Assembly (NCBI GenBank): GCA_002919195.1
Contig: PKEU01000170.1
Span: 1-32,695, forward strand
Direction: 5' to 3'
DNA: 32,695 nt
Source: a bacterium
Lineage (GTDB): Bacteria; Bacillota; Limnochordia; DTU080; RSA5
The notes below the pieces were generated by a model. That model made no database searches. It saw nothing but the letters and a program-made list of their open reading frames with translations, and was not told the DNA's origin. Of the stretch, positions 29,701 through 32,491 are shown piece after piece. A program made the translations under genes and the position numbers. Within the stretch, counting starts at the first letter, position 1; each line of letters starts with the position of its first letter.

Positions 29701-30663
29701 ATGAAACACGTGGTGAGCGTCAGTATCGGATCGTCCCGACGGGATCACCGGGTCGAAATGGAGCTGTTGGGTGAGCGGGTCTGCATCGAGCGGCGGGGTA
29801 CCGACGGCGACTTGGGGCGAGCAGCCCAGCTCATCCGCGAACTGGACGGAAAAGTCGACGCCATCGGCCTGGGCGGGATGGACCTCTACATCTTTGCCGG
29901 CGGTCGCCGGTACGTGCTGCGCGACGCGCAGAAGCTGGCAAGGATCGCGCGGAAGACGCCGGTGGTCGACGGCAGCGGCTTGAAAAACTCTCTCGAGCGC
30001 TGGGTCGTCCGCCACCTGTGTGAAACCCAGCAAGTCACCCTCACAGGGCGGCGGGTCTTGATGGTCGCTGCGGTCGACCGCTTTGGCATGGCCGAAGAAC
30101 TGGTCGCCCGCGGCGCCGACGTCACCTTTGGCGACCTGATCTTCACCCTAGGGGTGCCGATCCCCCTCCATTCGCTTACGACGCTCGATTGGCTGGCTCG
30201 CTTTCTTGCTCCAGTGGTCACCAAGCTTCCGTTTAAGATGCTTTATCCCACCGGTGAAAAACAACACGAGAGCGTGCCCCGGTATGAGCGCTTCTTCCGA
30301 GAAGTGGAGATCATCGCGGGTGACTTCCATTTCATCCGGCGGTACATGCCCCAGCAGCTGGATGGGAAAGGAATTATTACGAACACGGTGACTGAAAGCG
30401 ACGTCGAGCTCCTGCGCTCGCGCGGCGTCTCGTTCCTCGTGACGACAACGCCCAATCTCGGTGGCCGCTCTTTTGGCACCAACGTCATCGAAGCGGTGCT
30501 GGTGGCGATCTCAGGGCGCTCGCCGGAGACCCTGACTCCCGGAGACTACCTCAACCTGCTCAACCAACTGCAGTTTTTACCGCGGATCGAACGGTTTCGG
30601 GCGAAGGAGTCCCTCCGCGAGCTGCCGGCGCAGCAAAGCACATGGGTCCCACAGCGTTCCTAA
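29701..30663 (+). CDS. Uncharacterised protein of the family labelled quinate 5-dehydrogenase
   Basis: The 320-residue product resembles proteins in Moorella- and Desulfotomaculum-type Firmicutes labelled quinate 5-dehydrogenase, as far as I recall without any demonstrated activity. Typical blocks are VVSVSIGSSRRDHRVEMELLGE, TDGDLGRAAQLIRELDGKVDAIGLGGMDLY, TPVVDGSGLKNSLER, VLMVAAVDRFGMAEELVARGADVTFGDLIF, IIAGDFHFIRRYMP and TTTPNLGGRSFGTNVIEAVLVA. It lacks the shikimate-dehydrogenase catalytic Lys-Asp motifs I would expect, so the label is doubtful. No signal peptide was seen. ATG 29701 has GAGGGGG about 12 bases upstream. It is always worth reading with its neighbour, an acyl-ACP-reductase-like protein. 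Confidence 0.82.
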   Translation: MKHVVSVSIGSSRRDHRVEMELLGERVCIERRGTDGDLGRAAQLIRELDGKVDAIGLGGMDLYIFAGGRRYVLRDAQKLARIARKTPVVDGSGLKNSLERWVVRHLCETQQVTLTGRRVLMVAAVDRFGMAEELVARGADVTFGDLIFTLGVPIPLHSLTTLDWLARFLAPVVTKLPFKMLYPTGEKQHESVPRYERFFREVEIIAGDFHFIRRYMPQQLDGKGIITNTVTESDVELLRSRGVSFLVTTTPNLGGRSFGTNVIEAVLVAISGRSPETLTPGDYLNLLNQLQFLPRIERFRAKESLRELPAQQSTWVPQRS

Positions 30664-30692: not shown

Positions 30693-31817
30693 TTGGATAC
30701 GTTCGCCTTTATTCTCCACCCCTTGGAAATCCGAGACGTGGCACGCAAATTTGGGTTCGCGAAAAACCTTCCGGAGAAGTGGCTGGAGTCGGCCTTTAGC
30801 CGCCTGCCCGCGTTTAAGATCTCAGAGATTACGGGGGTGCGCTCGGCAGACACGGGGAAAGAGGTGAAGGGGTGGTTTGTCGCTTGTCCCCTCACGGCAA
30901 GGCAGATGCTTGAGCTTCCCGAACCCTATGTGTTGAAAAAGATCATCCAGGCCGCCAAGAAAGCGGAGGAGCTGGGTGCAAAGATCGTCGGCCTCGGCGC
31001 TTTCACCTCGGTCGTAGCCGACGCGGGCATCTCGGTCGACAAGGCCGTCGGCATCCCTGTGACGACAGGCAACAGCTACACCGTCGCGACGGCCCTCTTG
31101 GGCATCGAACATGCCGCCCAACTGCTAGGAAAGGATCTTGCCGGAGCCAAAGTGACCGTGCTCGGGGCATCCGGTTCGATTGGGAAGGCGTGCGCTCGCA
31201 TCATGGCGCGGCGCGGTCACGATATCACCCTAGTGGCACGGCGTCGCGGCCCCCTTGAGGAGGCTGCGGACATCATCCGTAGCGAAGCGGGGGTGACGCC
31301 CCGCATCGAGACGGACATCGAAACGGCGCTCCAAGACGCCGACGTCGTCATCGCGGTGACCAGCGCGGTCGACGCGGTCGTCGATGGCCGCTGGCTCAAG
31401 TCCGGGGCGATCGTTTGCGATGTGGCCCGGCCGCGTAACGTTGCTCGCGCCATCGCGGAGACACGACAAGATGTCTTTATCTTTGAAGGGGGAGTGGTGG
31501 CGCCGCCGGGCGACGTGGAGTTCAACTTCAACTTTGGCTTTCCGCCCAAAACGTGCTATGCGTGCATGGCCGAGACGATGGCCCTGGCTCTCGAGGGCCG
31601 GTTTGAAAGCTTTAGCCTCGGCCGGGATCTCCAGGTAGAAAAGATCGACGAGATCACGGCGATCGCCGCCAAGCACGGGTTCTCCCTGGCGGGGCTGCGC
31701 AGCTTCGAGCGGGCTGTCACCCCCGAATACGTGGAGCGGGTGCTCCGGGCGATCGCGGCTCAAAATGGGGAACGGAAGACCATCAGCTACGCCCCGTCGA
31801 GGGTTGACATTGGCTGA
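30693..31817 (+). CDS. Acyl-ACP reductase-like (AAR family) NAD(P)-binding protein
   Basis: This 374-residue protein aligns along its length with cyanobacterial long-chain acyl-ACP reductase, which makes fatty aldehydes from acyl-ACP. Shared blocks are the N-terminal FAFILHPLEIRDVARKFG, KEVKGWFVACPLTARQML, VGLGAFTSVV, VTTGNSYTVATAL, and the cofactor loop VLGASGSIGKACARIM (G158, G161, G164). The C-terminal YACMAETMALALEG, FSLGRDLQVEKIDEI and AAKHGF also match. The acyl-accepting cysteine of the cyanobacterial enzyme (Cys294) corresponds to Cys291. Automated labels for such proteins are often shikimate or saccharopine dehydrogenase, and substrate cannot be read from sequence. TTG 30693 has AAGGTGG (30680-30686) 6 bases upstream. 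No aldehyde-deformylating oxygenase is present in the window. The greA promoter lies inside its 3' end. Confidence 0.85.
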   Translation: MDTFAFILHPLEIRDVARKFGFAKNLPEKWLESAFSRLPAFKISEITGVRSADTGKEVKGWFVACPLTARQMLELPEPYVLKKIIQAAKKAEELGAKIVGLGAFTSVVADAGISVDKAVGIPVTTGNSYTVATALLGIEHAAQLLGKDLAGAKVTVLGASGSIGKACARIMARRGHDITLVARRRGPLEEAADIIRSEAGVTPRIETDIETALQDADVVIAVTSAVDAVVDGRWLKSGAIVCDVARPRNVARAIAETRQDVFIFEGGVVAPPGDVEFNFNFGFPPKTCYACMAETMALALEGRFESFSLGRDLQVEKIDEITAIAAKHGFSLAGLRSFERAVTPEYVERVLRAIAAQNGERKTISYAPSRVDIG

Positions 31818-31833
31818 AGAGCTGGGATATAAT
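31804..31833 (+). promoter_or_regulatory. Consensus promoter of greA
   Basis: A perfect TTGACA (31804-31809) and a perfect TATAAT (31828-31833) are 18 bases apart. The -35 box lies inside the last codons of the acyl-ACP-reductase-like gene. Transcription would start near 31840, leaving a leader of about 175 bases before greA. Confidence 0.85.
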
Positions 31834-31849
31834 CGTCGCCGGAACCAAG

Positions 31850-31897
31850 AAGTGCATACACATTGGGCTAAGCACTGACCCATTTTGGGCAGTGCTT
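31850..31897 (+). promoter_or_regulatory. Attenuator-like leader of greA with competing hairpins
   Basis: AAGCACTG (31870-31877) pairs with CAGTGCTT (31890-31897), and inside it CCCA (31879-31882) pairs with TGGG (31886-31889), with one bulged A. A moderately T-rich stretch follows (TTTGTGATTATCTTG). An upstream AGTGC (31851-31855) can pair instead with GCACT (31872-31876), which would break the terminator stem. Two copies of TTGTGAT (31897-31903 and 31908-31914) follow, 11 bases apart. The element lies between the greA promoter and the gene, so premature termination is plausible. Confidence 0.55.
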
Positions 31898-32014
31898 TGT
31901 GATTATCTTGTGATCCCAAATCGACGTGGCGTACAAAAGATCACGACACGAGCCGCTTGACCGTTGGCTCGCTGAGCAAAGCAGGCGCTCGTAAAAAAGG
32001 AGAGTAAGCGTCTG

Positions 32015-32491
32015 ATGGCCGACAAAGAAGTTTTGCTCACCCCTGACGGTCTGTCCAAGCTCGAAAAGGAGCTGGACCACCTCAAGACCGTTAAGCGGCG
32101 TGAAGTAGCAGCCCGCATCAAACAGGCTTTGGAGTTTGGAGACATATCGGAAAACTCGGAGTATGACGACGCGAAAAACGAGCAAGCCTTCGTGGAGGGC
32201 CGGATTGCCACCCTCGAGAAGATGCTGCGCAACGCGCGGGTCATCGACCAGGATGAGGTCGACACCGATACCGTCACCGTCGGAAGCAAGGTGCGCCTCA
32301 AGGACCTGGAGAGTGGACAAGAGTACGAGTACACTCTCGTTGGCTCAGCCGAAGCCGACCCGGCCGCGGCTCGCATCTCCAATGAGTCGCCGGTGGGTCG
32401 AGCCATCCTTGGCAAGAAAGTGGGGACCGTCGTCGAGGTCGACGCGCCGGCGGGTACCCTAAGGTACGAGATCTTGTCCATCTCCCGCTAA
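32015..32491 (+). CDS. greA: Transcript cleavage factor GreA
   Basis: GreA enters the secondary channel of stalled RNA polymerase and stimulates cleavage of the backtracked RNA 3' end. The 158-residue product has the usual length, with an N-terminal coiled coil (about residues 10-75) whose tip carries the acidic residues in [19 protein letters not shown]-terminal FKBP-like domain follows ([22 protein letters not shown] ... [18 protein letters not shown]). ATG 32015 follows AAGGAGAG (31997-32004), 10 bases upstream. A long leader with a terminator-like hairpin precedes it. lysS follows 28 bases later, the arrangement common in Clostridia-type genomes. Confidence 0.97.

Follow-up and report, generated by a model that had tools for sequence, protein, structure and literature searches.

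The window (the whole 32,695-nucleotide stretch of DNA analyzed) is contig 19 of a 3.13 Mb draft genome. It carries greA, preceded by a shikimate-dehydrogenase-like gene. The encoded GreA protein retains the D..E tip motif (GDISENSEY), which is required for transcript cleavage. Positions 29701–30663 encode a 320-amino-acid protein with no Pfam match; in several relatives (L004 and L007, for example), the sequence immediately preceding greA appears to encode its C-terminal part. The features of the greA region are as follows.

31804–31833, + strand: sigma-A type promoter, TTGACA-18-TATAAT, matching 12 of 12 consensus positions (promoter scan)
31840–32014, + strand: predicted greA 5' leader, with the transcription start inferred about 7 nt past the −10 element
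31851–31855, + strand: AGTGC, proposed antiterminator strand, complementary to GCACT at 31872–31876 (role in a switch unsupported)
31870–31877, + strand: 5' arm AAGCACTG of the conserved hairpin (leader comparison, covariation, and fold)
31879–31889, + strand: inner stem CCCA-TTT-TGGG over a bulged A at 31878 (from the sequence; CCCG...CGGG with a longer loop in the related genome G001)
31890–31897, + strand: 3' arm CAGTGCTT of the conserved hairpin (leader comparison, covariation, and fold)
31898–31909, + strand: interrupted U-tract TGTGATTATCTT, conserved together with the hairpin in G001 (blastn)
31994–32004, + strand: greA ribosome-binding site AAAAAGGAGAG (from the sequence)
32015–32491, + strand: greA, 158 amino acids, with both Gre domains (PF03449 and PF01272) and the ATG at 32015

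The greA promoter consists of a −35 element at 31804–31809 and a −10 element at 31828–31833, separated by an 18-bp spacer, and is the only site in the window that matches all 12 consensus positions, or even at least 11 of them. It overlaps the final codons of the shikimate-dehydrogenase-like gene, whose stop codon (31815–31817) lies inside the promoter and 52 nt before the hairpin. The predicted transcription start at about 31840 is 175 nt upstream of the greA ATG, in agreement with an earlier note on this DNA that claimed a perfect-consensus promoter about 175 bases before greA. Such 12/12 promoters are present in 184 of 232 distinct greA leaders and in none of 455 control stretches, although these controls are flanking DNA and mostly coding, such that the contrast with other promoters is overstated. 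The constancy of the promoter at greA is nevertheless striking. Among eight genomes scanned, the number of 12/12 promoters ranges from 2 to 30 per genome (17 in the source genome), whereas a backwards control pattern occurs once or not at all per genome (0 in the source genome). In the source genome, G001, and G005, several of the few perfect promoters (four loci) apparently precede tRNA-like sequences. Very tight promoters are limited by escape, and Gre factors assist this step; for this reason, the greA promoter itself may be GreA-sensitive.

The hairpin, AAGCACTG-A-CCCA-TTT-TGGG-CAGTGCTT, lies exactly at 31870–31897. It is bulged, contains 12 bp, and has a folding energy of −16.8 kcal/mol when taken alone. 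A strong bulged hairpin early in the leader is therefore present as the earlier note had described, and it is stable and GC-containing, as is the stem of a canonical intrinsic terminator. The checks proposed in the same note included folding of the leader RNA and a search for covariation in relatives. In the fold, the hairpin forms with pairing probabilities of at least 0.999 for the six core pairs checked (31872–31877 with 31890–31895), and the RNA from 31840 to 31915 is more stable than dinucleotide shuffles (z = −2.9; 2/200). In G001, the nearest relative and the only same-family genome compared, blastn gives just two blocks, namely 31870–31909 (84%) and the region of the start codon. The inner stem of G001 reads CCCG...CGGG where that of the source genome reads CCCA...TGGG.

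Similar hairpins recur before greA in distant lineages. The 232 distinct leaders are nearly all from Bacillota, and 221 have a recognizable promoter. The core AGCACT...AGTGCT (the AAGCACUG...CAGUGCUU stem) is found in 74 of these 221 leaders, compared with 0.65 in dinucleotide shuffles, and 85 have a perfect stem of 10 bp or more that lies no further than 110 nt from the promoter (2.8 expected). Behind 26 other perfect promoters from eight genomes, no stem of at least 9 bp was found. The core hairpin is carried by, among others, Moorella thermoacetica, Desulforamulus putei, Desulfallas, Sporotomaculum, Caloramator, and Clostridium thermobutyricum. The hairpin keeps a more constant distance from the promoter (28.9 ± 12.5 nt, measured from the −10 element) than from the start codon (106.5 ± 33.9 nt). 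This anchoring to the promoter bears on the idea that the hairpin terminates the upstream operon and lies behind the greA promoter by chance. In the source genome, the preceding gene does end inside the promoter, just 52 nt before the hairpin; yet the tracking of the greA promoter in distant lineages, together with a U-tract that is poorer than those of true gene-end terminators sharing the stem, makes this origin very unlikely.

A covariance model of the hairpin finds the greA leader as its only match in the source genome and in G001, G008, and G025. Over 399 genomes, greA leaders account for 23 of the best 30 loci, and those of the other seven for which the motif was displayed resemble gene-end terminators with T-tracts. 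Many Bacillota also share AAGCACTGC...GCAGTGCTT as a terminator stem (L326–L345), and this recurrence suggests a preferred terminator sequence. Within the class, the model matches before greA in only about 10 of the 62 genomes that have the gene, and the remaining genomes have other hairpins or none ahead of greA. These patterns indicate fast turnover.

Several other leader types were observed. Nine leaders of about 75–81 nt have a perfect greA promoter and no strong hairpin. In nine leaders from other lineages, a different hairpin, AGTGTCAAG...CTTGACACT, is found in the first 140 nt and has more U-rich tails, and ten leaders from one family of the class have a further conserved hairpin, GTACCCGGCAC...GCCGGGTACTRTRGTGC. 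A second recurrent motif (CATATATTA / CATATTAA / CATATAATA) occurs in 27 of the 221 leaders, compared with 1.9 in shuffles, and is often located about 50 nt ahead of the start codon; we take it to resemble in part a sporulation sigma −10 element (CATANNNTA). The 3' stretch CTTGTTATGGTAGTTAG was rejected as a universal element, as it is limited to some lineages and the information content of the tail is low over all leaders. An enclosing helix around the hairpin, prompted by L206, L116, and L275, was marginal (7 bp in 8 of 80 leaders versus about 3) and not clear at 5–6 bp.

The comparison of relatives provides strong sequence evidence for a conserved RNA hairpin. In the proposed covariation check, the stem proved to be conserved across Bacillota, with covarying inner pairs. 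In 72 aligned hairpins, 85.9% of cells are paired. Double-change cells number 141; shuffles give 58 (0/500), and slid controls no more than 67. Because the six core pairs were used for sequence selection, independent evidence comes only from the pairs outside the core (columns 6–9 and 16–20). For each of the inner pairs 17–20, both sides are changed in 19–25 sequences. Wobble pairs are strongly strand-biased: among cores with one wobble (symmetric criterion), G-U occurs 26 times in the greA sense and once in the antisense, and the corresponding numbers for the flanking pairs are 56 and 16. Furthermore, the distance between AGCACT and AGTGCT varies from 10 to 35 nt among leaders. Taken together, the inner covariation, the strand-biased G-U pairs, and the variable arm spacing argue that the transcript acts here, such that the hairpin would work as RNA and not as a DNA operator of fixed spacing. 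A CIRCE-like operator (TTAGCACTC-N9-GAGTGCTAA), to which HrcA or another repressor would bind, was considered, since the CIRCE consensus presumably has the core AGCACT/AGTGCT in common with the greA leaders. Such an operator has a fixed 9-nt spacer and is recognized as a duplex; given the half-site spacing, the covarying inner pairs, and the strand-specific wobbles, it was rejected as extremely improbable.

The earlier note further proposed that AGTGC at 31851–31855 pairs with the 5' arm and competes with the hairpin as an antiterminator. The complementarity is real; the competing role finds no backing in the comparison. AGTGC is absent ahead of the hairpin in the G001 leader, and complements of the 5' arm occur upstream in 6 of 80 leaders (4.7 ± 2.0 expected), which is no enrichment. 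When the entire leader is folded, the probability of the alternative pairs is about 1e-8, and the best fold in which they are enforced has −12.0 kcal/mol, compared with −24.9 kcal/mol for the best fold overall. The conserved alternative pairing of the 5' arm that defines a classical attenuator is thus not found. A nascent RNA of 41 nt can make a 5-bp AGTGC helix (−5.8 kcal/mol); any influence of this pairing would be confined to the short period in which the transcript has about that length. Antiterminators have also been reported for greA leaders of other groups by Naville and Gautheret (2010; PMC2965389). Nevertheless, for a strand that is neither conserved nor enriched and is weaker by about 13 kcal/mol, a role as the antiterminator of an attenuator switch has almost no likelihood.

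The sequence after the stem departs from that of a canonical intrinsic terminator, in which a U-tract directly follows. The tail UGUGAUUAUCUU has no U-run, its longest T-run in the 12 nt after AGTGCT being 2, and a consensus terminator scan of the window did not call the site at 31870–31897. This interruption is found in greA leaders generally. The longest T-run averages 5.0 at 20 non-greA places with the same stem (80% with at least 4) and 2.4 in 83 greA leaders (7%; p ~ 1e-10), where the strand of the non-greA places was chosen by T content and the same rule applied to greA leaders gives 2.6 (15%). The same stem thus appears to act as a normal terminator elsewhere and to have a systematically degraded release signal before greA. 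For the earlier description of the hairpin as terminator-like, this means that the stem fits and the tail does not.

Such tails raise the question of whether RNA is released at all. A pure hairpin-stabilized pause would time early elongation or sense GreA or Nus factors, and no short RNA would be made. The systematic interruption of the U-tract is in line with this reading, as are the 12-nt tail conserved in G001 without a U-run and tails such as CACGTACTGTCTG in L086. In the GC-rich relatives L083 and L086, the tails are so poor in U that RNA release is doubtful, and the hairpin may do no more than pause the polymerase. However, most greA-leader tails remain U-rich (about half T over 12 nt), B. 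subtilis accepts very poor U-tracts when NusA and NusG act (PMC8060035), and the E. coli greA leader does terminate, so a pause without release is rather improbable as the general explanation. Another alternative is a 5' stability element that shields the message from 5'-end-dependent decay and leaves transcription unaffected. The strong stem close to the 5' end and the degenerate tail would suit such an element, but a fixed stem sequence would not be needed, whereas AGCACUG recurs and forms terminators elsewhere, and about 20–30 nt lie ahead of the hairpin. This alternative is therefore quite unlikely.

We instead favor, with a probability of roughly 0.6, that the greA leader contains a hairpin near the promoter that acts as a leaky terminator or as a pause. 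Transcription would start at the near-ideal promoter, and the hairpin at 31870–31897 would fold behind RNA polymerase once about 58 nt have been made. Because the U-tract that follows is interrupted, the polymerase would stall and release the RNA in only a fraction of cases, probably aided by NusA and NusG, as happens at suboptimal terminators of B. subtilis. The released RNAs would be about 60–70 nt long, with ends near 31904–31910, and the remaining transcripts would continue into greA. GreA acts on polymerases that have stalled and backtracked, so readthrough would likely respond to GreA activity in a feedback loop, a dependence taken by analogy from E. coli. The sequences show the promoter, the hairpin with its conservation, covariation, strand, and association with greA, and the broken U-tract; the partial termination, the short RNAs, the involvement of Nus factors, and the GreA feedback are inferred.

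GraL and the E. coli greA leader were reportedly the subject of work by Potrykus in 2010. In E. coli, the leader terminator is imprecise and lets only about one-third of the greA transcripts through; the short RNAs are GraL, and autorepression requires catalytically active GreA and the GraL leader in cis (Dylewski, 2019; PMC6829880). The earlier note regarded the two arrangements as analogous, and the layout is indeed the same, with a strong promoter, a hairpin about 20–30 nt into the transcript, and a long remaining leader. The predicted RNAs (about 60–70 nt) are also similar in length to those of E. coli GraL (37–59 nt). However, there is no evident sequence relation, and the seven Ts that follow the hairpin in the annotated E. 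coli genome contrast with the interrupted tract of the source genome. The GraL model (RF01769) has no match to 31780–32030 at E-values up to 5, compared with 127.5 bits for the E. coli control, and a search of Rfam with the window and 12 relatives returned nothing credible. The hairpin is analogous to GraL in layout and is not a member of the RF01769 family.

Other known systems share some of these features. Naville and Gautheret (2010; PMC2965389) predicted attenuation of greA in Proteobacteria, bacilli, and Clostridia, and these predictions likewise place early transcript control before greA. They differ in having antiterminators, and their main text does not mention the AAGCACUG stem, a broken U-tract, or ideal promoters. 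Judged against that text, greA attenuation in bacilli and Clostridia is an earlier idea, whereas the shared motif, the interruption of its U-tract, and the pattern of ideal promoters appear not to have been described. The rimP-leader, as presented in the same text (PMC2965389), is also a short hairpin whose stem sequence is conserved and which in most species lacks an antiterminator; it lies before a transcription-factor operon (rimP-nusA). However, its stem is GGGc...gCCC, it has a T-stretch, and it precedes another gene. In the NusA/NusG-dependent terminators of B. subtilis, A-U pairs close the base of the stem and the U-tract is interrupted (PMC8060035). The source-genome hairpin has both, namely two terminal A-U pairs and the interrupted tail UGUGAUUAUCUU, and thus resembles such assisted weak terminators in the sequence features compared; the B. 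subtilis class itself was defined by Term-seq.

It is possible, though doubtful, that the promoter and hairpin together form a GreA-sensing module of Bacillota. Selection would maintain an over-tight promoter and a terminator hairpin with a broken U-tract, such that the supply of GreA governs promoter escape as well as early readthrough. The loop would be the same as that of GraL, built on an unrelated motif unlisted in Rfam, and would produce an RNA of about 65 nt. Among the papers searched, none reported experimental short greA leader RNAs in Bacillota. The motif offers a defined handle in laboratory strains such as Moorella or Desulforamulus, and because the stem occurs both with an intact U-tract and with a broken one, it provides a natural contrast set. 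If the leaky terminator or pause is true, two very distant groups end greA transcripts early through unrelated RNAs, which would argue that selection keeps the logic, in which a factor for stalled polymerases is gated by a stall.
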